Shown in pieces: positions 50,002 through 63,934 of a stretch of 64,000 nucleotides of DNA. A program made the translations under genes and the position numbers. This DNA is from a virus. Position 1 is the stretch's first letter. Every line of letters starts with the position of its first letter. The stretch lies in IMG/VR virus record IMGVR_UViG_3300032241_003073, positions 34,315 to 98,314 of that record; one strand, 5' to 3'. Under the pieces are notes generated by a model, which ran no database searches, was not told the DNA's origin, and saw only the letters and a list, made by a program, of their open reading frames with translations.

Positions 50002-51570
50002 TTATCCTTTTGCTTTTTTCTTTTCGTATGCTATTTTCATTTTCTCACTTCTACAAGTTTTACACATTGAACAATATCCGTCACGCCTACTTTTATCTAG
50101 AGAAAATTCTTCAAATAATTTAATTTCCTTGCATTTGACGCACTGCTTTTTGCCATCGTTTACATGAGGATTTTCTTTTCTGAAATGTATCTTTGGTTTG
50201 CTGCCAGATATCTTACCACCTTCTCTTTCGCAAATATATCGCCCATTTTTCGCTATGTTTCGATCATAGGTTAATCGTAAAGCAGTGTGTCTCTCTTGGC
50301 AAAAATCACACTGAAATTCTACCTTTTCGGTCGCAATTTTTGTGTCGTAATGTTTTTTTGCTTTCTTTTTGTTATTTTCTTTTTGCTTACGAATCCAGTC
50401 TATATTTCCTGTTGTTTCTGCTATGAAGTTTTTTGCCCAATGGATAATGGCACGATCATTTTTCAAACCAGATTGTTGTTCTGTCCAAATTGAAAATTTG
50501 CAACCAATTGAATTGGCATATTTTTCAGTTTCTAAAATTTGTTTCTGTATATCTATTTCTTTTTGAAATCTAGATTCTGGCTTTACTTCTAAAATCTCTT
50601 TTGAATTATTTGTATATGTAACTTCAATGTCTGGATTGCGACTTTTTCCATCGCTATCAACAAATACATCTGCACGCTTAAAATATAAAACATTTTCATC
50701 TTTTTCTAAAAGATAAATACATCTTAATTCATAAGACGAACCATAAAAAATATCAGATTGACACTTTTTAGATGAGAAATAACCTCTGATATGTGAATGT
50801 TTAAAGTCGCCTTTTTGGTTTTGTTCTGCACACTTTTGAGATAATTTTTGTTTCCAAGTTTTTTTAGTAGGATCAAGTGGATAGACCCATCTTTTCTTAC
50901 CTTTGTCCCATATTTTTTTAAGACCACGCAATTCTGCCCATTCAAATTCTGTCATTCCTTCTGGGCATTTTGATGAGGACTTCTTTTGGCTTTGTTTGCT
51001 AATTCTTTTGTGTGGATTTTTAGTGTCTACATAACAGTAATCTGGTTTGTGATTTTTTTCCAATTGAAACTCTAAGACTGCATAAACATTGCCGTTAGTA
51101 AAACGATTGTCGCTAAAACTGATTATTTCTTCATAATTATTATGTTTGGCCCATTCTACACATCGTGCAAAAAGTTTACTTGCGCCTCCCTGAACATGAA
51201 TTCCGTAAGAAATGCAAAATCTATCCAAAACAATTCTATTTTCAAAAACTTGTCGATTGTGGCGACCAAGTGACATCACGCCAATAAGTTCTTTTTCATA
51301 AAATAATCCAAAATAAACCACTCCAAGATTATTTGATCCTTGAATATGATTTTTTGACAAAAACTCTTTCCCCAACTCATTTTGAATTTCTTTAACTATG
51401 CACTTTCTTCCATGTATTTTTCTATCAAAAACTTTGTTTTGAGATTTTATGAAATTCATACATTGTCGTTTTCTTAATAGCCATTCATCTGAAAAAAACA
51501 CAATACCATCAGACCACTGTTTGTTTTCATGATTTTTTGGGTCGGATATGTCTACAATTGTCACTTGCAT
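50002..51570 (-). CDS. Composite mobile endonuclease: GNAT-like + PD-(D/E)XK + zinc fingers
   Basis: 522 residues. Residues ~55-195 resemble the GNAT-like module often fused to phage homing nucleases: KEFLSKNHIQGSNNLGVVYFGLFY, LIGVMSLGRHNRQ, VQGGASKLFARCVEWAK. Residues ~270-370 hold a nuclease-like core: FYGSSYELRCIYLLE, NPDIEVTYTNNSKEILEVKPE (PD ... ExK). The C-terminus has CDFCQERH and CVKCKEIKLFEEFSLDKS zinc fingers. Probably a selfish endonuclease near the capsid gene. Confidence 0.72.
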   Translation of the reverse strand: MQVTIVDISDPKNHENKQWSDGIVFFSDEWLLRKRQCMNFIKSQNKVFDRKIHGRKCIVKEIQNELGKEFLSKNHIQGSNNLGVVYFGLFYEKELIGVMSLGRHNRQVFENRIVLDRFCISYGIHVQGGASKLFARCVEWAKHNNYEEIISFSDNRFTNGNVYAVLEFQLEKNHKPDYCYVDTKNPHKRISKQSQKKSSSKCPEGMTEFEWAELRGLKKIWDKGKKRWVYPLDPTKKTWKQKLSQKCAEQNQKGDFKHSHIRGYFSSKKCQSDIFYGSSYELRCIYLLEKDENVLYFKRADVFVDSDGKSRNPDIEVTYTNNSKEILEVKPESRFQKEIDIQKQILETEKYANSIGCKFSIWTEQQSGLKNDRAIIHWAKNFIAETTGNIDWIRKQKENNKKKAKKHYDTKIATEKVEFQCDFCQERHTALRLTYDRNIAKNGRYICEREGGKISGSKPKIHFRKENPHVNDGKKQCVKCKEIKLFEEFSLDKSRRDGYCSMCKTCRSEKMKIAYEKKKAKG

Positions 51571-51699
51571 GATTTTCTACCTTTGTGTTGTATTATACCC
51601 CAGTTGAAAAGCCCTTTCAAGGACAGAAATTAAAATAAGTTGAAAGTTTTTGTTTGTTGAGCTATAATAAAATTGTTCAAACAACCAAAGGATTTTCTC
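51571..51699. promoter_or_regulatory. Divergent promoter region between two endonucleases
   Basis: 129 bp. AT-rich boxes (TATAATAA at 51663-51670, TTGTATTATACC near 51580) face outward. AAAGGAT lies 7 nt before the plus-strand ATG at 51700. Confidence 0.35.
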
Positions 51700-52845
51700 A
51701 TGTATCTTCAAGATGTTTCTGATGTGCCGTTCACCACTACTTTGATCAAAATCAAATATGATTGTTGCGGTAAGGAGCATGTTTTAAAATGGAAAGATGC
51801 AAAAGCCAACTATGAAAAGAATCAAGGCAAGCATATTTGTCGATCTTGCGGACTCAAAATCAACAATCCTGCACGAAGTGAAAAGGTAAAAGAAAAAATC
51901 AAGAAAACTAATCTTGAGCGATACGGAGCAACGATAGCTTTAAATACCAAAGAAAATATAGCTGCTCGTGTAGAAAAAATGTTCGGCACTGAGGAAGCTA
52001 CAGCAGCAATTGTTGAAAAACGCAAAACAACTTCACAACAGCGTTATGGTGCAGAACACATTATGAAAACTCAAGAAGGAATTAAAAGACTCAAGGAAGC
52101 GATGCAAGAAAGATATGGAGTAGACTTCCCACTTCAATCAGAAGAAATTAAACAAAAAATGAGAGAAACATGTCAAGAACGATATGGAGTTGACAACCCA
52201 GCACAGCTTCCAGAAGTTCAAATCAAAATGGCAAAAACAACTTTAGAAAAGTATGGAGTTGAACATTATAATCAATTGCCCGAAATGAAGGATTATTTAA
52301 GAGAAAATTGCAGAGATTGGCTCAAAGAGGCATGGGCTAATCCTTGGGCAAAAGGCATTATACGCCCAGAGGACTGGAATCAGAAGCAGAGAGAAACTGT
52401 AATGGAATTGATGAACAAGAATGAATGGAAGTCTGGTCCCAAATATTCAATTAAAGGTCATTATCAAAGTCAAAAATGCAAACGATTAAATTCTATGTTT
52501 CGATCTAGTTACGAACTGAAAACTCATTGGCATTTAGATAATGATCCTGAAGTTGAATGGTATGATTATGAACCTTTTAGAGTTTCATACTATGATGTTG
52601 GACAACATAAAAGATATTATATAATTGATTTTATTGTTAAATATAAAAACATTGAAAGACTATTGGCCATAGAAGTGAAAAATGATTATTCAGAGAAATT
52701 AGAACTTGTTTTACTCAAGAAAAATGCTTTTGAAGAAGAGTGTGGAGAGATGATTGATTATGAGATTTGGTCAAATGAAAAGATTAAATCGCTAAATCTT
52801 GAACTTGATGAATTACTTGAATCATCTTTGGTCACGATCATATAA
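51700..52845 (+). CDS. Homing-type endonuclease with RYG-repeats and PD-(D/E)XK core
   Basis: 381 residues from ATG 51700 (AAAGGAT upstream; the frame also reads from a TTG). N-terminal zinc finger (CCGKEH ... CRSCG), then five ~30-residue DNA-binding repeats each with a RYG or KYG core (ERYGATIAL, QRYGAEHIM, ERYGVDFPL, ERYGVDNPA, EKYGVEHYN). C-terminus: FRSSYELKTHWHLDNDPEVEWYDYEPF, IIDFIVKY, LAIEVKNDY gives PD-(D/E)XK catalysis. Sits beside the capsid gene. Confidence 0.75.
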   Translation: MYLQDVSDVPFTTTLIKIKYDCCGKEHVLKWKDAKANYEKNQGKHICRSCGLKINNPARSEKVKEKIKKTNLERYGATIALNTKENIAARVEKMFGTEEATAAIVEKRKTTSQQRYGAEHIMKTQEGIKRLKEAMQERYGVDFPLQSEEIKQKMRETCQERYGVDNPAQLPEVQIKMAKTTLEKYGVEHYNQLPEMKDYLRENCRDWLKEAWANPWAKGIIRPEDWNQKQRETVMELMNKNEWKSGPKYSIKGHYQSQKCKRLNSMFRSSYELKTHWHLDNDPEVEWYDYEPFRVSYYDVGQHKRYYIIDFIVKYKNIERLLAIEVKNDYSEKLELVLLKKNAFEEECGEMIDYEIWSNEKIKSLNLELDELLESSLVTII

Positions 52846-54418: not shown

Positions 54419-55315
54419 TTAGGATGATTTTTTTACACCTGATAGGATCAATAGTTGATCAATATCATTGTTTGTGGGTGCTGCGTATTCCGATAAAACA
54501 ACACCTTCGTCTGCAATTTTGCCTCTCCCCGTTACATTCTTTGCTTTTTCAGATCTTTCTTTCTGTTCCGTGATAAAACTGGACTTTTTGTCACGAGAAA
54601 TTGCCTTACGGCTTTCTGTGATAATTTCTTGAGCTTGTCTTACGCTTTCGTTTAGCTTTGTGTTTTCAGTCGATAGACGAATATTACGAGCTTCCATTAG
54701 GCGAAGTTGGCCCTTCATTTCTTCGATTGATTTGTTTGCTTCGTCTAGCTTGCTAGAAGAAACTGTTGCGAAATCTACATCAGATAGATAATTACTTGTT
54801 AGATCAATGATCTTATCTAGAGTAACCTTGTGTTCAGACATGCGAGGATCATTAAGAACATCTCTCTTGGCTTGTTCGTAAATTTCTTGTCCTTTGAATT
54901 GAAGGAATTGATCAACCTTGTCAACAATGTATTCCTTCATTTCTGCTAGCTTCTTGTCGTATTCTTCATACATTTCGACTTCTAGCGATTGATTTTTGTT
55001 TCTCTCTGTCTTTAGAATTTGATATGCTTCTTCGTATCCTTCTTCTAGTGCGGCCTTGTATTCTTCGCCTTGAACTTCTAAGCGATTTCTAAGATCAGCG
55101 ATAATTGCATAAGCTTCTTCGTATCCCTTTTCTGCTGTTTTTTCAGCAGTTTCTAGTTCGCCTGTAAGCTCTGCATAAGCTTCTTCGAGCTTATCGTTGA
55201 ATTCCTTTTCAAGACTGTTCTTGGTTTCTTCTAGCATTTCCTTTACAGCAGATGCTACTTCACCAACTTCAGCTTCAGGTAACATTCTTTTAAGTGCTTC
55301 TGTGATTTTGTCCAT
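54419..55315 (-). CDS. 22: Prohead scaffold (core) protein, gp22-like
   Basis: 298 residues, against 269 in T4. Highly charged, almost wholly coiled-coil, Glu/Lys-rich with repeated YEEAYAI/YQIL segments (three near-copies of EEGYEEAYQIL type). The place between gp21 and gp23 fits the T4 order. Assembles the prohead core and is degraded by gp21. TATATAAAA box upstream at 55331-55339. Confidence 0.85.
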   Translation of the reverse strand: MDKITEALKRMLPEAEVGEVASAVKEMLEETKNSLEKEFNDKLEEAYAELTGELETAEKTAEKGYEEAYAIIADLRNRLEVQGEEYKAALEEGYEEAYQILKTERNKNQSLEVEMYEEYDKKLAEMKEYIVDKVDQFLQFKGQEIYEQAKRDVLNDPRMSEHKVTLDKIIDLTSNYLSDVDFATVSSSKLDEANKSIEEMKGQLRLMEARNIRLSTENTKLNESVRQAQEIITESRKAISRDKKSSFITEQKERSEKAKNVTGRGKIADEGVVLSEYAAPTNNDIDQLLILSGVKKSS

Positions 55316-55460
55316 ATTTCCCCTTGCTAATGCTTTTATATATGCATTTATAAATAAATTTTTAAAAATTTATTTCGCCAAAACTAGCATTCTTAACCTA
55401 AATGCTAGTGTTTACTTGCATATAATACATATGCAGCAGTTTTATTTTTTTAGAGAAAAA

Positions 55461-56429
55461 ATGAAAAATTTATCACAAGAAGTTATTTTTAATTTATTTA
55501 AAGATGCGGGATGCCAACTTTTAAGCGAATATAAGAAGTGCAATATTCCTTTGATTTATATTTGCAAATGCGGAAAAAAGGGGGAAATTACACTTGATAA
55601 ATTTAGAAAAAGAATTAAGAGGGGTGGTGGTTGTGCTTTTTGCGGCAAAAAAGAATGGACAAAAAATCAAGATGAATGTTTGAAAAATTTATATGGAAAA
55701 GTACCAAGAAAATTGATATTGGAATCTATTCCTGGAATGACTTATTCAGATATAAAAAATCGAGCTAATAATTTAGGACTAAAAGGAAATAGAAGATTAG
55801 TTAGCAAGCAAATAAATAAAAAAAGAAAGTATCATATAAATGATTCTTATTTTAATGTTATAAGATCAGAAGCATCATATTGGGCTGGCTTTATGGCTTC
55901 TTCTGGAATTATAAATTATAATAAAAATCAAATTTCAATAAACGTATTCCAAGAAGATCTGGTTCATTTGGAATTATTTAAAAAAACAATTGATTATAAT
56001 GGAAAAATTTATGATTTTAATGGTAAATTATCTTTGCAAATACATGGTGTGGGCGATTGGATTTTTTTGTTAGAAAATAATTATCAAATTACTACAAGAA
56101 AACATTTGCATTTAAAGCCACCATTTGATTTGGACGAATTAAACTCTATGAGTTATATAATTGGCTACATTGATGGTTGTTGTGAAATATCGCTTGATAA
56201 TGATTCAATGAAAATGTTTGGAACTATTGATGTTCTTTCTTGGATAAAGAATTGGTTTGATTATTGGTGTCCATGCGTTCAAAGAAGATATGCCGTGATA
56301 AGAATGGATAGAAATGATCGTTATTTTTATTGTTTATCTGGCAAAAGGGCTAATTATATTTTAAATAAAATGATTAATAATGATTTGCCATTCCTTGAAA
56401 GGAAATGGAAAAGAGGCAATGATAATTGA
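55461..56429 (+). CDS. LAGLIDADG homing endonuclease inserted between gp21 and gp22
   Basis: 322 residues from ATG 55461. N-terminal zinc-finger-like part (CKCGKKG ... CAFCGKK), a helix-turn-helix-like segment (RKLILESIPGMTYSDIKNRANNLGLKG), then LAGLIDADG motifs: SYWAGFMASSGIINY and SYIIGYIDGCCEISL. Antisense to its neighbours and carrying its own terminator, so it is an inserted unit. Likely targets the gp21/gp22 intergenic site in related phages. Confidence 0.75.
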   Translation: MKNLSQEVIFNLFKDAGCQLLSEYKKCNIPLIYICKCGKKGEITLDKFRKRIKRGGGCAFCGKKEWTKNQDECLKNLYGKVPRKLILESIPGMTYSDIKNRANNLGLKGNRRLVSKQINKKRKYHINDSYFNVIRSEASYWAGFMASSGIINYNKNQISINVFQEDLVHLELFKKTIDYNGKIYDFNGKLSLQIHGVGDWIFLLENNYQITTRKHLHLKPPFDLDELNSMSYIIGYIDGCCEISLDNDSMKMFGTIDVLSWIKNWFDYWCPCVQRRYAVIRMDRNDRYFYCLSGKRANYILNKMINNDLPFLERKWKRGNDN

Positions 56430-56467: not shown

Positions 56468-57127
56468 TTAAATTCTTTTAAGCATTTGTTTCTTTTCTGA
56501 TTCAACAATTCCTCCCAAGCAAGCTATCAAAGCTTCTTTGGATACTTTGGGTTTTGTTGGAATTGAAGAAGTATTATATGTTGGAACATAACTTTCTTTT
56601 TTACCAGAAAATTCTTTTTGATATGCATTATGAGTGCTTGGGTCAGCAACAGCGTCGAATGTGATTAGCTTATAGCTTTCTCCAATAACAAGAATTCCAT
56701 TTTCATCACTTCTGCCGTTTCCAACTCCACGGCTACTAATTCCAACTCTTACACCATCTGATATAAGACTTTTTAGAATTTTACCATGAGGTGTGTTAAG
56801 GATTTCTCCTTCTCCCATTAGGTTGTTTCCTTCCCACCACAATTTTGTGATAATGTGGGAACACTTTTCAAAGTGAATAATTGAATCTGTAGGATGGTCT
56901 AGTTCTCCAACTAGACCACGAGCTTCAACAATTGGAATTAGCTTTTTTAAATTTTCATCAAGAACTGTATACGGGTAAATTCTTTTGTTCTTATTGACTG
57001 CTTCAGCTTCTTGGAATTTACCTCTAAATTTAGTCAAACCTTTATCGGTTGTTGATTCATTTAGACTTAGGGTGAATCCGCTGTTGTTGCAACAGTCAAC
57101 GAATAGACTTAGTTTCTCATCATTCAT
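56468..57127 (-). CDS. 21: Prohead maturation protease, gp21-like
   Basis: 219 residues from ATG 57127 (AAAGGAGT upstream), matching T4 gp21 (212). The longer frame overlaps the core-protein gene and lacks a site. Catalytic features: His78 in GELDHPTDS, Ser131/132 in VGISSRGVGNG, Asp158 in ITFDAVADPS. Cleaves scaffold, capsid and internal proteins after [LI]-x-E, the site seen in many leaders of this window. Confidence 0.92.
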   Translation of the reverse strand: MNDEKLSLFVDCCNNSGFTLSLNESTTDKGLTKFRGKFQEAEAVNKNKRIYPYTVLDENLKKLIPIVEARGLVGELDHPTDSIIHFEKCSHIITKLWWEGNNLMGEGEILNTPHGKILKSLISDGVRVGISSRGVGNGRSDENGILVIGESYKLITFDAVADPSTHNAYQKEFSGKKESYVPTYNTSSIPTKPKVSKEALIACLGGIVESEKKQMLKRI

Positions 57128-57144
57128 TGGACTCCTTTTTAAAA

Positions 57145-58920
57145 TTAAGCTTTGGTTTCGCCCTTGGTTTTGTCCCATGGAGAAGCAGGAACATATGGAT
57201 TCTTTAGATTTGGCCAAGTGTCGCCAGATTGCCAACGACTCCAATCGCTATCGCCATCATCCACTGCTGATTTTTCTTTCATTTTGTAGTCGCCAAATGG
57301 CTTGGGAACGTATGGGTTGCTAAGTGCTGGCCATTCATCGCCATCAGAATGATTGCCCCATGCATTGCTTCTCATTTCGTCTGCCAAATTGTTTTTATAG
57401 CTTTTTCCATCAGATACTGGAGCCGAGTCGCCCCAATCTCCAGGGAATTTGGATGGCACAGCATCTCCAACTTTAGCGGCCCAAGACATACGTGGGTGAT
57501 CTCCACTTACTGTATGATGGACATTGTTATTGTTTACATCCCATGTGTCGTTTGCTCCATCTACATTAGCTTCAACAAAACTATGAATGTAAGAAGCGAT
57601 TGATTCTGCTAGTCCCAAATCAATTTCTGTTTCATAATTTAGAATTGCAGCACATTCTTGCATAAAGTTTTCAGTTTCTGATTGAGTAGCTTCATCACCA
57701 TTCTTTACAGCAACTTTTCGAACTTCATTTAATGCATTGAATAGATCAGAGAACATTTTGAAATTAGCTTGATCAGATTCATCTAGTTTGGCATAGAATC
57801 CATCAACCAATGTTTTAAACTCTTTGTAAGAATCTTCGCATTGTTTGCATTCTGCTGTTACATCAGTTGTGGCTCCTGCCAAATTTCCAATTTTACGAAC
57901 ACGATCAGTATAAGCATTGTGTGCTGTTCTTAGAATAGCTTCGGCCATAAACGAACAAACTTTATCATCATAATTTGATACGTTTGCAGTCTCTAATGCA
58001 GTGGCAATTTGCGAAGATAATTCTTCTTCTGTAGAATAAAGAACATCTGGCCAACGGCTAACAATGGCTTCAAGTGTTTCTTCGAGAGAGATATTGTCAG
58101 AAATATTGTTATATCTCTTGAGATCTGACATTGCTTTGACGAATGCTTGATCTTCAGACAATCTCTTCATTTTTCCACGTAGAACTTTAAGTTCGTGATC
58201 TAGTGTCTTCCAGTTGAAGCTTAGAATCTTGCTTTCGTTTCTCTTTTGAAGAGTTGGAACAGCAACAGCAACAACATTACCTTTGTTATCGGTACGAATA
58301 AAAGATTCAGAAAGAACTGGTCCAAATTCCTTGTAATTAATGTAATTGATTACATTTTCGCACATAACTTGCCATTCTTTGATGGTTTCAGGCTTGATTT
58401 TTTTGGCATAGAAAGCAGTTTTTGGATTTTTTCCTTTCTTGACAAATTTTTTAAGATTCTTTAGATTCTTGAGATTCTTCTTGGATTTTTTCGATGCTAG
58501 TTTTTCTGCCTTTGGCTTGGTTGCTTCGTTTACTAGCAATTCACGCCTAACGAATGGCATGGATAGATAGCTTTCAAATAGATTGCTTGCTTTTGCTTCA
58601 TTATTTTCTAATAAAGAATCAACCATATTTACCAAAACTTGACGAGCAGATTTCTTTTCGCCGCTTTCTTCAATAACTAATTGTTCAATATTTTCAAGAA
58701 CCAATTGATCCTTGTTTAGACTATAAGTAGCATGAACGAAGTTTCCATCTGGTTCTTGATAAGTAACATCAGATTCTCCATAAACAAATAGATTTAAACT
58801 ATCTTTTTCTAGAGAATTTGCCAAAACTTCTTCTGCACCAATTAACTCTTCTTGGGCTTTTGTAAGTGATCCTTCTTCGATTTTTTTGAAAGCATCGAAG
58901 CTGATTAATTTTCTTTTCAT
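57145..58920 (-). CDS. Prohead core/internal protein in the gp67/gp68 position
   Basis: 591 residues from ATG 58920; the preceding TTG is a weaker start, and GGGAG lies upstream. Begins MKRKLISFDAFKKIEEGS, with an I-E-E cut site. Central Lys/Asn/Leu cluster (KKSKKNLKNLKNLKKFVKKG) is very basic. Helical middle and a Trp/Asp-rich C-terminus with two similar units ending NPYVPKPFGDYK and NPYVPASPWDKT. Takes the place of T4 67/68 between portal and protease. Probably core component. Confidence 0.65.
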   Translation of the reverse strand: MKRKLISFDAFKKIEEGSLTKAQEELIGAEEVLANSLEKDSLNLFVYGESDVTYQEPDGNFVHATYSLNKDQLVLENIEQLVIEESGEKKSARQVLVNMVDSLLENNEAKASNLFESYLSMPFVRRELLVNEATKPKAEKLASKKSKKNLKNLKNLKKFVKKGKNPKTAFYAKKIKPETIKEWQVMCENVINYINYKEFGPVLSESFIRTDNKGNVVAVAVPTLQKRNESKILSFNWKTLDHELKVLRGKMKRLSEDQAFVKAMSDLKRYNNISDNISLEETLEAIVSRWPDVLYSTEEELSSQIATALETANVSNYDDKVCSFMAEAILRTAHNAYTDRVRKIGNLAGATTDVTAECKQCEDSYKEFKTLVDGFYAKLDESDQANFKMFSDLFNALNEVRKVAVKNGDEATQSETENFMQECAAILNYETEIDLGLAESIASYIHSFVEANVDGANDTWDVNNNNVHHTVSGDHPRMSWAAKVGDAVPSKFPGDWGDSAPVSDGKSYKNNLADEMRSNAWGNHSDGDEWPALSNPYVPKPFGDYKMKEKSAVDDGDSDWSRWQSGDTWPNLKNPYVPASPWDKTKGETKA

Positions 58921-59100
58921 AATCAATTGACTCCCTGTGCTGTTGTTGAATTTTTTATTCGCAACTACTGCCTATGATGAGGTTATTTATTATAGTCAGC
59001 TTAATTTTTATTAAAGTCGGCTTATTTTTTTTAAAAAAACATAAAATGGATAAACCTCTGGTATATAGTTATGCATGTAAATATAAAAATGAGTGTAAAA

Positions 59101-59454: not shown

Positions 59455-59533
59455 AAATTTTATATTGACAATTTATAAGTTTTATGATACATTTTATTTG
59501 GTTTCGATTTTCATTTGAAAAATGAGGTGTGTC

Positions 59534-59875
59534 ATGAAAATAGTTGCTTTTTGCTTTGCGTTTTTTATTGTAAGTGCCAATGCTTTTTCTCAGGAAAAGC
59601 CGATTGTTGAATCTTTAGGTTCAGATGGGAGAGTTCTTCGTAATCCTCCTCAAAGTCTGCCTGGACAATCATATCCTGGATATCAACCATATCCAGCTTA
59701 TTCATATCCTCAACCTTACGCATATCCTTATCAACCTTATTATCCAGCATATCCTGTATATTCTTATCCTCAACCTTACGCATATCCTGTATATCCTCAG
59801 CCGTACTATTCATATCCTCAACCTTACGCATATCCTGTATATGCATACCCACGACACTCACTCTTTTTTCGTTGA
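59534..59875 (+). CDS. Secreted Tyr/Pro-rich repeat protein
   Basis: 113 residues from ATG 59534 (TGAGGT upstream). Signal peptide: basic start, hydrophobic core (IVAFCFAFFIVSANA) and a likely cut after ANA/FSQ. The mature part is mostly Tyr/Pro: repeats of YPQPYAYPVY. Resembles low-complexity surface or extracellular proteins, not phage structural ones. May coat or modify the host surface; host-derived or selected for late function. Confidence 0.7.
   Translation: MKIVAFCFAFFIVSANAFSQEKPIVESLGSDGRVLRNPPQSLPGQSYPGYQPYPAYSYPQPYAYPYQPYYPAYPVYSYPQPYAYPVYPQPYYSYPQPYAYPVYAYPRHSLFFR
59699..59843 (+). repeat. Direct repeats encoding Tyr/Pro-rich units
   Basis: About 30 bp unit (tatcctcaaccttacgcatatcct) in three near-identical copies at about 59705, 59765 and 59814, plus degenerate intervening copies. 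Repeat number could vary by slippage. Confidence 0.85.
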
Positions 59876-59953: not shown

Positions 59954-60179
59954 TGGCTCTTTTTAATATTTCTTCAGATAGTGCGATTCCGCACATATCT
60001 CCTATTACAGAATCAATTTCGCAAAACGGGCAAATGACTGTTTTTTCTGCATCTGTATAATTTTTAATTTCTTTTACATCAAATATTTTCAAGCAATTAA
60101 AACAACCAGCATTTTTAGATTGTTCTACTAATTTTCTGTTGTGCATTGCAAGTAATGGAAATTCATTAATTCCTGTCAT
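59928..60179 (-). CDS. Small zinc-ribbon cytoplasmic-type protein
   Basis: 83 residues. CFNCLKIFDVKEIKNYTDAEKT, CPFCEIDSVIGDMCG, LSEEILKRANLFWF match a widespread small bacterial family annotated only as cytoplasmic protein, with two CxxC pairs. Overlaps the portal stop by 4 nt. A bacterial-style protein in the head operon; function unknown. Confidence 0.75.
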   Translation of the reverse strand: MTGINEFPLLAMHNRKLVEQSKNAGCFNCLKIFDVKEIKNYTDAEKTVICPFCEIDSVIGDMCGIALSEEILKRANLFWFKPK

Positions 60180-63100
60180 AAATCATTCCCTATGCTATAG
60201 TCGATATCTTCTATGTCTTGTTCGCTTTCATAATCCATAATTTCTAAATCATATTTTTTAATATCTTCAGAATTAGGATCTGGTATATTTATGCCCTCAG
60301 TTGACTTTGTGTTAGAAAGTTCGGGAGCATCATTTTTTTGATTTTGTGAGTTATCGGGAGCAGGCATTTGATCTGGGCTTTGAGATTCATCAGGATTTGG
60401 CATTTCATTAGGACCGCCAGATTCTGCCCCCAATTCTCCTGGATTGTTTTGCTCATCTCCAGGAACTCCAACTCCCAACAATGCTGGATTTTGAGCTAAC
60501 ACTTGTAGTTTTAGATCTTCTAGTTTTTGTAGTTTCAATCTAGCAATTAATTCATCAGCTTCGTCTTCAGAATATTTTAATATTTTTGTTATAATATCAT
60601 AGTCTGACATAATTTGGCTGCTTTTTAACGTTCCTGCATTGCTATATCTTGCAGTTGTAACTTCTGCACGAGATAATTCTCGCCAATCCGAAGGAGCAGT
60701 CATTTTAACTTTTAAGTCTTGATAACTCTCTTCTGGATATCCTCTCAATTCTAGGTGTCTTTCTAAAATTTCTAATATTCCATCTTCGAAATGACTTTGA
60801 AGACGTTCAATCATTCGAGCAAATTTAACATCTTGTGCAGAAAGAGTAATTCTTGTGGCACCTGGATCTTCATTGTTAAAATAATTTTTAGGAAAGTTTA
60901 ACGCTGTTAAGAGTTTGTTTCTAAAATAAACAGCATCATCAATTTCTCCTAAATTTTCTGCTCCTGGTAAAGTATCAATTCTTGTGTTGCTATTTGGTCG
61001 AGTTGGAAGCCATATGTCTTCATCTTGTGCTGGAGGCATCCATCTTTCTTCGACTTGATTGGCACCTGAAGACCCACGATTGCTGGTAACTTTTCTCTTG
61101 CGGAATTGATCTTTTAATCTTTCTAATAGCATTTCAGACTTAAATGGCGGTAATTGTCCGACATCTATATAAAAAACTCTACGCTCAGGAGCACGAGTGT
61201 TATGTGAGCAGCAACCATTAACCACAAAGTTGTGCGGTTTGCCATTTGCAACAGTTATATCGTAAACATGTTCAATTCCATCAGCATCTATTGACCAAAT
61301 ATTTTCATATTTTGGTAATTCACGATGACTTATAGTAATGTTCCAATTTTCGGTTTTTTTCATTACTCGATTGCCAATTTTATGGCCACCTTCACGGACT
61401 CTATGAGTTATGTGGCCACTGCACAATCCTATGCCATGCCACATTTCTTTAATATCTTCAATTAATTCTTTATTGCACAAAGAAATTGTAGAAAACCATA
61501 ATCCTTTTTTTGTATGTCTTTCGCATCCATCAGCGTCAGAAATTCCTTCTATTAAAGCTTTTCTAATTTTTTTATCTGCTTTAAATGCCCAATTAGGAAT
61601 TCTTTTTTTGTATTTATTTGGAATATATCCCATAGCAAGAAAAATTTGACAAGCAATTTTAGAAGATACAATTATTTTTCCTACAGATGAATGTGAGCTT
61701 CTCTTGTCTTTTTCAAAATAAACTTTGCCAAAATATTTTTGTAATAATTTTTTATAATAATCATTAAGTTTTTCATCTGTAGACGTTGCAAATCCTAATT
61801 GTGATCCATGTGCTATGAATCCATCTCCTAGAAAAAATCCAAATAATCTAGCAAATTCTTCATCAACTATTTTGGGAACATTTATTCTTTCTGGATTAAT
61901 TTCTCCTTTGTTGCAAACAACAACATCATCATCTTTAAGATCAAAAGCTTCTTTAATTATATTAAAATCACATTCAGGAACTGTTATTCCGTCACGATAA
62001 ATAAATTGATAAGCCTGTGAAAATAAAGAGCAACTTTGTGCCAATTTTCTTCTGTTTACATTCTTGTTTTTTTGAATTTTTTCTTTTCCTAAACTTTTGA
62101 GAGAATAGCGTTTTTCTCCAAAAAATCTTGGAATTTCTATTGGAATTGATTCTGTGTTTAACACATTTACAAATTGATCTCCTTTTTGCAGATCTTGAAG
62201 ATCTATATATTGTATAATCCCATTTCTGTTAATTAACATTGGATGTGTTTTAGTTCCACGAATTTCTATATGTTGAGATTTAACTTTTAGAATTTCTTGT
62301 TTTCCGTTGTCAATCCAGTCAACCACAGATGTCAAACTTTGTTTTCCTCCCGGAAGTACGCAATATACATTATCGCCAATTTTAATATCTTTAATTGGCA
62401 TCCATCCGTTTTCTGTTCTAACTCGACTATCTCCAGTCAAACAAAGTCTATAGACAACCATTGCATCTTCCATCATTCTTAGGCTGTGTGCAGGACCACG
62501 AGCCGGTTCTATTAGACTTTGTCCATATGGATAAAATGTTTTTCTGTCATCTCCAATTCTAAAATGTATAATTTGACTTGGCGAAAATCGAAGTGCAGTT
62601 GTTTGGTTCAATTCATTTTCATCTTGATCTGTTATTGATCCTCTTAATAGTGCTTGATAGTCTGGTCCTTCTTTGCTTTGCTGATATTCGATTAATTTTC
62701 CTTTAACTGTTTCAATTCTATACATGGTTTCAGGAGGCAACGGAACTGCTTTATAAATACCCTCTTTAGGGTTATCTGGGTTTATAACCATTTCCAAAAA
62801 TAAATCTCCAGATATGCATAAATTCTTAAAATAAGTCCATCCTTGTCGATTCATATTAAGCATTTTTCTGTTTAACAATACAAATTCAGACTCTTTCTTA
62901 ATTTCATCGTTTTCTGTATATATTTTGAATATATTGCCATTTTCATCTTTTTGACAATTGTGTAAAATTACGCTATTTGTAGCAAAACATTTGTGCTTAT
63001 CCACAGACAAATCGTAAACATCTTGTTCTGGTCCTTCTTCTACTCCTATTACTCTACGTCTATCTTCTTTTCTGTATAATTTTCTTACTTCTCTTGAAGT

Positions 63101-63934
63101 GAATCCTTCTTTTACAAGCCATCCTTCAATTGATCCCCATTTATATTCTGTTATTTTTGAAATTTGTCTGGTTCTAAGTCCAGATCCAATCATTCGAATA
63201 ATTCGATTAACTTTCTCGTGTTCCTCGGATGTTTTTCCTGTCTTCCAATCTTCTATAAATTGATGCTCGCTAATCCAACCTTTTAAAAAACTGTATAAAC
63301 GTGGGTATTGTTTGTATTTAATATTAGTTGATGCAGAAACTCTGTAAAATGGCATGAGTTCATCACCAAATTTTAATTTGCCAGTTTCTGTCCATGTTCC
63401 ATCTCTTTTAAGAACTCTATGATCATGAGTTGCTGTGAATTTTGTGCCATTATCTAAAATAATTGTTCTGGTTTTATCCTTTTTAACCAGTCTTGGTGCA
63501 TATGCCCAACCAATAGTATAATCTTTTTGCTCAAAATCATAACAATAGACTAAAAACCTCTCATCAGATTTTTTTTCTGCTAATTCTTTTATTGTAATAA
63601 ATCCTAATGGAGTCGCAATTAATGTATCTCCAGCAACACATGATTCATCTGAAAAAACTGTCATTGCCAGTTCTATTTCTGGAACATTACGCAATCTTTC
63701 ATACTCTTTATATCTCATAGAGCGATTAGAAAGCGTAGTCGTATCTATCATATCGTTTGTTTGACGATAGCTAGTTTGTCCTCCTGGACCGCCACCACCT
63801 TCAAAATCAGTACCTAATGCTTCTGGCGAAGCAATACCAGCGGTACTAAATTGCTTGGGGTCTTTAAGAGCAGATAGTGGATCTCTCTCTGTTGCATATG
63901 TAAAAAGACGAAAAAAATCACTCCATATTGGCAT
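60176..63934 (-). CDS. 20: Portal vertex protein, gp20-like, split by two inteins
   Basis: 1252 residues, but removing the two inteins leaves 609, close to T4 gp20 (524). Extein order: N-terminus to VFSDES, then CQKDENGNIFKIYTENDE ... AHSLRMMEDAMVVYRL, then TRAPERRVFYIDVGQLPP, WLPTRPNSNTRIDTLPGAENLGEIDD and a disordered Asp/Glu/Pro-rich tail. Both insertions fall in conserved portal motifs. Ring at the head vertex for DNA passage. SD AGAGGT. Confidence 0.95.
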   Translation of the reverse strand: MPIWSDFFRLFTYATERDPLSALKDPKQFSTAGIASPEALGTDFEGGGGPGGQTSYRQTNDMIDTTTLSNRSMRYKEYERLRNVPEIELAMTVFSDESCVAGDTLIATPLGFITIKELAEKKSDERFLVYCYDFEQKDYTIGWAYAPRLVKKDKTRTIILDNGTKFTATHDHRVLKRDGTWTETGKLKFGDELMPFYRVSASTNIKYKQYPRLYSFLKGWISEHQFIEDWKTGKTSEEHEKVNRIIRMIGSGLRTRQISKITEYKWGSIEGWLVKEGFTSREVRKLYRKEDRRRVIGVEEGPEQDVYDLSVDKHKCFATNSVILHNCQKDENGNIFKIYTENDEIKKESEFVLLNRKMLNMNRQGWTYFKNLCISGDLFLEMVINPDNPKEGIYKAVPLPPETMYRIETVKGKLIEYQQSKEGPDYQALLRGSITDQDENELNQTTALRFSPSQIIHFRIGDDRKTFYPYGQSLIEPARGPAHSLRMMEDAMVVYRLCLTGDSRVRTENGWMPIKDIKIGDNVYCVLPGGKQSLTSVVDWIDNGKQEILKVKSQHIEIRGTKTHPMLINRNGIIQYIDLQDLQKGDQFVNVLNTESIPIEIPRFFGEKRYSLKSLGKEKIQKNKNVNRRKLAQSCSLFSQAYQFIYRDGITVPECDFNIIKEAFDLKDDDVVVCNKGEINPERINVPKIVDEEFARLFGFFLGDGFIAHGSQLGFATSTDEKLNDYYKKLLQKYFGKVYFEKDKRSSHSSVGKIIVSSKIACQIFLAMGYIPNKYKKRIPNWAFKADKKIRKALIEGISDADGCERHTKKGLWFSTISLCNKELIEDIKEMWHGIGLCSGHITHRVREGGHKIGNRVMKKTENWNITISHRELPKYENIWSIDADGIEHVYDITVANGKPHNFVVNGCCSHNTRAPERRVFYIDVGQLPPFKSEMLLERLKDQFRKRKVTSNRGSSGANQVEERWMPPAQDEDIWLPTRPNSNTRIDTLPGAENLGEIDDAVYFRNKLLTALNFPKNYFNNEDPGATRITLSAQDVKFARMIERLQSHFEDGILEILERHLELRGYPEESYQDLKVKMTAPSDWRELSRAEVTTARYSNAGTLKSSQIMSDYDIITKILKYSEDEADELIARLKLQKLEDLKLQVLAQNPALLGVGVPGDEQNNPGELGAESGGPNEMPNPDESQSPDQMPAPDNSQNQKNDAPELSNTKSTEGINIPDPNSEDIKKYDLEIMDYESEQDIEDIDYSIGNDL
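61199..62443 (-). mobile_element. Portal intein 2 (415 aa) with LAGLIDADG endonuclease
   Basis: Residues 498-912. Starts Cys (CLTGDSRVRTENGWMPIKDI), block B TKTHPMLI, ends with FVVNGCCSHN and then Thr as +1 residue. Between lies a LAGLIDADG endonuclease: LFGFFLGDGFIAHG and LIEGISDADGCERH. Extein junction is MVVYRL/TRAPERR, a highly conserved gp20 motif. Full-size intein, probably active in both splicing and homing. Confidence 0.93.
62957..63640 (-). mobile_element. Portal intein 1 (228 aa), no LAGLIDADG
   Basis: Residues 99-326. Starts Cys (CVAGDTLIATPLGFITIKEL), block B THDHRVLK, block F VYDLSVDKHKCFATNSVILHN with terminal His-Asn, then Cys as +1 residue. The insert between blocks (about residues 205-295) has HTH-like sequence (RTRQISKITEYKWGSIEGWL) and no recognised nuclease. 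Extein junction VFSDES/CQKDENG. Confidence 0.92.

Follow-up and report, generated by a model that had tools for sequence, protein, structure and literature searches.

A T4-type phage portal gene with two inteins, one of which may be retained by its carriers for the protein it releases

We analysed the final 64 kb of the 98,314-base virus record IMGVR_UViG_3300032241_003073, hereafter called the window; positions below refer to the window unless another contig is named. On the minus strand, the window carries an open reading frame (ORF) for the precursor of a gp20-like portal protein, interrupted by two inteins. One of them (intein 2) looks like an ordinary mobile intein, while the other (intein 1) appears to be a resident of the portal gene, and the possible reasons for its retention are the subject of this text. 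The gene is laid out as follows, with the basis of the assignments in brackets (HTH stands for helix-turn-helix).

60176..63934, minus strand: portal (gp20-like) precursor ORF with two inteins, 1,252 amino acids, open frame
63641..63934, minus strand: N-extein, residues 1-98 (boundary analysis)
62957..63640, minus strand: intein 1, residues 99-326, 228 amino acids, class 1 HINT domain with an insert in which no endonuclease is recognised (profiles, AlphaFold model)
63419..63430, minus strand: block B of intein 1, T71-x-D-H74 (boundary analysis, alignment)
63233..63340, minus strand: insert of intein 1, linker and beta-beta-alpha part, residues 101-136 (alignment, AlphaFold)
63059..63232, minus strand: insert of intein 1, HTH-like part, residues 137-194 (profiles, AlphaFold)
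62444..62956, minus strand: middle extein, residues 327-497, its first residue being the +1 Cys (boundary analysis)
61199..62443, minus strand: intein 2, residues 498-912, 415 amino acids, class 1 HINT domain with a LAGLIDADG endonuclease domain (profiles)
61820..61846, minus strand: LAGLIDADG motif 1 of intein 2, LFGFFLGDG (profile, sequence)
61526..61546, minus strand: LAGLIDADG motif 2 of intein 2, GISDADG (profile, sequence)
60176..61198, minus strand: C-extein, beginning with TRAPERR (profiles, gp20 alignment, boundary analysis)

In Pfam searches, the Portal_T4 match to this ORF was split in two pieces and accompanied by an Intein_splicing match, and the NCBIfam models of the N-terminal and C-terminal intein splicing regions found two matching stretches each. 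The Portal_T4 profile and a match to gp20 in the PDB identify the protein as a T4-type portal. Both inserts possess the sequence hallmarks of class 1 inteins, i.e. Cys1, a TxxH block B, terminal His-Asn and Cys, Ser or Thr at +1: intein 1 starts with Cys and ends with His-Asn followed by Cys, intein 2 starts with Cys, contains a TKTH block and ends with His-Asn followed by Thr. The boundaries and intact splicing residues thus agree with the original prediction, made from the DNA alone, of two Cys-type inteins of 228 and 415 residues, and the joined exteins form a T4-type portal of exactly the 609 residues foreseen there. The prediction had also placed a LAGLIDADG endonuclease in one intein (found by Pfam) and an HTH-like insert in the other (supported by AlphaFold and weak HTH profiles). 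Alignment with T4 gp20, which it had proposed as a check, showed T4 gp20 to be uninterrupted at the second insertion site (site 2), the aligned pieces stopping at chain residue 207 and restarting at 208. Since T4 gp20 is continuous there and many relatives are without intein 2, the insertions are not ordinary portal domains. From this anatomy, it can be inferred that the portal is made as a precursor which splices out two inteins.

Intein 2 has the features of a LAGLIDADG homing intein of the ordinary kind, which moves from one phage to another. Its HINT domain is assigned by Pfam and NCBIfam profiles only; both LAGLIDADG motifs were located, and the LAGLIDADG_3 match (PF14528, E 3.9e-8) is confined to ORF residues 692-758. 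Two inteins in one gp20 had been called unusual, which is right in degree: of the 116 distinct relatives whose gene was readable at site 2, 17 contain intein 2, and these 17 carry both inteins (in 13 further distinct relatives the gene could not be read as far as site 2). The four portals nearest to that of the window (80-81%) are without intein 2, and the nearest intein 2 (73% identity) resides in locus L068, whose portal shows 75% identity. Across the 16 genomes carrying both inteins that were compared, distances in the intein-2 and portal trees are correlated with r = 0.19 (113 of 999 permutations were as high) and 3 of 13 splits are shared. This sporadic occurrence and a tree unlike that of the portal argue for mobility. 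Some variants of intein 2 were also noted. In L074 and L158 (one contig), site 2 holds a shortened intein 2 of 262 residues in which neither LAGLIDADG motif was found by pattern, perhaps a natural mini-intein stage. In L336, L073 and L075, the penultimate His is altered (Gly-Asn or Met-Asn precedes the splice point), and splicing is possibly impaired or variant.

The distribution of intein 1 is very different. Our first search started from the spliced portal, with peptide patterns none of which crossed the first insertion site (site 1), hence it was not biased towards occupied sites. Out of 80 loci found, 67 contained a full intein 1 at exactly site 1, two contained it cut or frameshifted (L069 and L072, the latter on a frameshifted contig with intein pieces in place and therefore counted as broken, not empty), and ten ended short of site 1. 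The sole empty site 1 belonged to a distant portal, L082, with 29% identity. Two further portal searches, one of which covers the best 80 of 575 matches, recovered intein 1 in 71 of 78 and 69 of 75 new loci, many of them from contigs already seen. The 13 loci without it comprised 11 cut at a contig end and two which represent one empty-site contig (L142 and L248). A portal search started from a distant member yielded one new contig only, and portals at about 30% to 46% identity were not found among the matches listed. All 129 distinct intein-1 proteins are stop-free, 228-237 amino acids long, and have Cys1, a His-Asn end and Cys at +1. T71 and H74 are each conserved at 1.00 (rounded) in 117 aligned copies; a coarse block B pattern read N..H in six of the 129.

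The carriers include contigs of 527 and 533 kb as well as the uncultured phage LR756511 (595 kb), so that at least some members of the clade are very large phages. In each of 12 long records, there was one strong match to intein 1, always within a portal-sized frame; two of these records gave additional weak matches to other intein-like stretches. When phage records were searched with intein 1, partial splicing-domain matches were all that appeared beyond LR756511. A scan of bacterial and archaeal genomes returned one relative, L347 (RXKI01000042.1), from a Neisseriaceae metagenome-assembled genome. This contig carries a portal with both inteins and is probably a phage contig binned with the bacterium, perhaps a hint about the host.

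Intein 1 also differs from intein 2 in its descent. Over 117 sequences, 63 of 114 splits are shared between the intein-1 and portal trees, and 52 of the 60 supported intein-1 splits conflict with no well-supported portal split. In the same 16 genomes for which intein 2 was compared, intein 1 reached r = 0.80 against the portal, with 8 of 13 splits shared. This opposite behaviour of two inteins in the same genes and genomes is the cleanest contrast in our data. A phylogeny unlike that of the host gene, expected of a homing intein, is not seen for intein 1, which on these trees is inherited with the portal.

The AlphaFold model of intein 1 (predicted local distance difference test, pLDDT, 96) shows the HINT fold, with Z 21.9 to the Mtu RecA mini-intein (136 residues aligned, root-mean-square deviation 1.5). 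In the window copy, the HINT domain is interrupted by an insert of about 94 residues which has no Pfam name, and no Pfam endonuclease match lies at residues 99-326 of the ORF, absence from Pfam being no proof. Modelled alone with AlphaFold, the insert forms a beta-beta-alpha part followed by an HTH-like bundle. The HTH label comes from profile matches that are weak and limited to fewer than half of the 46 members scanned: the best Pfam E value was about 2.5e-4, no family matched more than 14 of the 46, and none matched the window copy. A Foldseek search of the PDB with the insert model gave no match at E <= 0.001; in the structure comparison, helix-turn-helix proteins of the AraC/LuxR type were the sole rows, with Z no higher than 5.6, below the reliability level of the tool; and the insert profile had a single weak match among PDB sequences (8vd6_A, 'CAP REPEAT', E 0.0018). 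We name the predicted fold no further than 'HTH-like', and this tentatively. Weak PHROG matches labelled HNH endonuclease were present in 13 of the 46 insert copies, lying on the HTH part in the two members inspected. Some copies weakly matched small-terminase PHROGs, like generic HTHs. That intein 1 substitutes for the small terminase is speculation, which is neither supported nor excluded by the lack of PF11053 (DNA_Packaging), presumably the T4 gp16 family, in the 12 long relatives and in the window's record.

The insert is nevertheless well conserved. Nine of its positions are at least 95% conserved in the 117 copies, including G121, W122, E125, G179 and L188; in the beta-beta-alpha part, G121, W122 and E125 are invariant and R114 is near-invariant. 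Well-kept polar residues are Q111, R114, E125, R126, Q127 and E184. The ratio of nonsynonymous to synonymous substitution rates (dN/dS), pooled from 38 close pairs that are not independent, was 0.20 for the HINT domain, 0.23 for the beta-beta-alpha part and 0.32 for the HTH part. On the evidence of these ratios and the conserved positions, the insert is under purifying selection.

The few exceptions to the presence of intein 1 proved informative. The portal of L142 (60% identity over residues 1-486) runs through site 1 without interruption, and an intact ORF of 235 residues upstream of it encodes a protein homologous to intein 1 over its full length. We searched for vacant sites with a DNA pattern able to detect 53 of the 121 distinct junctions known, and obtained six matches, i.e. 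L142 again, one new portal contig from a different metagenome (L327), and L323, L325, L326 and L328, which were dropped as they had no significant portal match. In L327, too, site 1 is empty, and an intein-1 homologue of 236 residues is encoded separately. On both contigs, the gene order is TerL, small ORF, 2H phosphoesterase, free-standing homologue, minus-strand ORF and portal, with one additional ORF ahead of the portal in L327. Related phages with the portal-borne intein have the minus-strand ORF, and sometimes the 2H gene, in the same order with no extra gene. The start of the free-standing gene overlaps the stop codon of the preceding gene in L327, and an AGGA-like site lies ahead of its ATG in L142, arrangements that are frequent in expressed genes. 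Divergence between L142 and L327 amounts to 16% in the portal stretch compared and to 44% in the free-standing protein, so the contigs are not copies of one assembly error. Scans with the L142 protein and with both free-standing proteins found no third contig; the 16 other matches of the latter scan were all classed as lying inside a portal. As for the 2H phosphoesterase genes that precede the homologues (L142:1706-2251 and L327:11221-11781), the L142 protein matches Pfam Acb1 (anti-CBASS) above the cut-off, which makes an anti-defence gene in the packaging cluster possible.

Splicing residues have been lost from both free-standing proteins: neither has Cys1, both carry substitutions at D210 and H227 and at either T71 or H74, and one of them also at N228. 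At the same time, they retain 8 of 9 and 9 of 9 invariant residues of the insert in an open frame. Intein_splicing is the sole Pfam match in each, the L327 protein scoring below the family cut-off. In a simple neutral simulation, about 12 stops accumulated per copy and the frame stayed open in 1 of 2,000 runs. Between the two proteins, 32 of 40 residues are identical in the beta-beta-alpha part versus 71 of 135 in the HINT domain (Fisher p = 0.002), whereas both regions stand at about 0.6 in portal-borne pairs of similar overall identity. In the portal tree rooted on L082, L142 and L327 fall within the intein-bearing clade beside L161, and their free-standing proteins also join L161 in the intein tree (supports 0.905 and 0.933). 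As both trees place them there, the free-standing state looks derived.

We hold it to be rather probable that intein 1 is a resident of the portal gene, retained because the phage uses the excised protein in trans, and that it was relocated in one lineage. It would no longer be a homing element. Its splicing domain would restore the portal and simultaneously release a protein of 228 residues (HINT core plus insert), to be used by the phage in trans; the likeliest role would be that of a DNA-binding factor produced together with the portal. A single lineage would have seen the intein leave the portal and become a separate gene between terminase and portal, whose splicing residues decayed while the insert was kept. 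Near-universal presence, together with preservation as a splicing-dead gene in the exceptions, suggests that the phage needs the excised piece; since the polypeptide, above all its insert, survived the loss of splicing, the excised intein may well have a job of its own.

Several points speak against such a use in trans. Near-universal presence alone could be inertia, as a fixed intein is hard to lose precisely. Descent with the portal is not perfect: the portal tree contradicts 8 of the 60 supported intein-1 splits, and over all 117 sequences the distances are moderately correlated (r = 0.58, with 0 of 999 permutations as high). The relocated copies on the two contigs probably go back to a single event. 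Between the L142 and L327 proteins, conservation is lowest in the HTH part (23 of 58 residues identical), and dN/dS of this pair is 0.445, as compared to 0.084 for the same two portals, indicating weaker constraint on the free-standing proteins, with a ratio still below 1. DNA binding, finally, would rest on the weak HTH matches described above.

A more specific form of the proposed use in trans, which we put forward with a little more doubt than belief, is that splicing serves as a polyprotein device: one gene would yield the portal and a needed DNA-binding protein, and the intein would persist for its second product. A lineage without the portal intein would then have had to keep this product as its own gene beside the terminase. 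The product may act in DNA packaging or head-linked regulation.

Alternatively, intein 1 might be a fixed, ageing intein that homed once and lost its endonuclease, precise loss being rare, with the free-standing copies a one-off recruitment or relics. Inteins that have become fixed are normally expected to lose their endonuclease in the course of the homing cycle (PMC1654191), and no endonuclease was recognised in intein 1. However, a decaying endonuclease region would be expected to shrink or vary, while the insert has a nearly constant length, invariant residues over 117 aligned copies and signs of purifying selection, and both empty-site contigs keep the protein as an open gene. We thus regard this explanation as unlikely. 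It is less plausible still that intein 1 acts as a splicing switch which delays or conditions portal maturation. Conditional splicing has been reported for other inteins (PMC6195587 and PMC8557812), and the splicing residues of portal-borne copies are perfectly kept, but L142 and L327 manage without splicing at site 1 and yet retain the polypeptide, and a switch would not select for a splicing-dead free protein. Least of all do we expect the insert to be an unrecognised homing nuclease, making intein 1 and the free-standing copies selfish still: its beta-beta-alpha part with R-I-Y and G-W-x-x-E-R-Q-F may resemble the N-terminal part of HNH proteins, and the weak HNH-labelled PHROG matches point the same way, but the tree of intein 1, in contrast to that of intein 2, agrees with the portal tree, and the kept polar residues fit no HNH, LAGLIDADG or GIY-YIG set that we recognise.

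Three nuclease-like genes are located near the portal gene:

50002..51570, minus strand: nuclease-like gene, 522 residues (Mom/GNAT, HNH-homing and endonuclease VII-like PHROG matches)
51673..52845, plus strand: homing-endonuclease-like gene (DUF7487, weakly TnsA-like)
55197..56429, plus strand: endonuclease-like ORF (phrog_4645)

In the first, a Mom/GNAT-like stretch is joined to HNH homing endonuclease matches and a C-terminal endonuclease VII-like stretch; in the second, it is the C-terminal part that is weakly TnsA-like. The original prediction had counted three nucleases within 12 kb, and they hold up at the level of PHROG matches. Its view of the head cluster as a hotspot for selfish elements fits intein 2 and the free nuclease-like genes, but not intein 1: this one descends with the portal, no endonuclease can be recognised in it, and in the two relatives without it in the portal it lives on as a splicing-dead stand-alone gene. 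In addition, a short ORF (59522-59875) encodes a dense Tyr-Pro-Gln-Ala repeat behind a likely signal peptide, and frames overlap where a large head-cluster ORF of unknown function meets the prohead protease (57145-58926 and 56468-57244).

As for known systems, inteins have been described in mycobacteriophage terminase and portal proteins (PMC5050341), and in a crAss-like phage the TerL is interrupted by two inteins (PMC7886860). Intein 2 is like the class 1 LAGLIDADG inteins of phage late genes in its parts and its sporadic occurrence. In contrast to the cases in those two papers, the gene here encodes a T4-type portal and contains, besides intein 2, a non-mobile intein that nearly all members of the clade share. 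In the literature searched, which was covered partially and supports no claim of absence, neither this portal intein nor a stand-alone homologue of a phage intein was described, and we met no phage intein that is kept throughout a clade and also has a free-standing descendant unable to splice.

It has long been asked whether an intein, once fixed, may be retained because its carrier profits from it. A fixed parasite is expected to shed its unneeded part, and the 2006 review PMC1654191 asks why, if an intein-borne endonuclease became useful, it was lost repeatedly. Intein 1 resembles the fixed inteins of the homing cycle (PMC1654191) in being clade-fixed with no endonuclease recognised, but the region between its splicing halves is nearly constant and selected, instead of deleted or decaying. 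A single gene supplies both the control (mobile intein 2) and the test case (resident intein 1), the latter not seen lost in the clade unless its protein is kept, and L142 and L327 are natural cases in which the portal site is empty and a separate gene encodes the protein in trans. On this reading, intein 1 would be an example of a domesticated intein, akin to the yeast HO and WHO elements, where a stand-alone intein relative has a host function (PMC7282813). The likeness to HO lies in a stand-alone, non-splicing, intein-related protein, in the phage probably also kept for its own function. The difference is that HO keeps an endonuclease and has a zinc finger, whereas the phage protein is without a recognised nuclease, and that the splicing-competent version of the phage protein still resides inside the portal in nearly all relatives.

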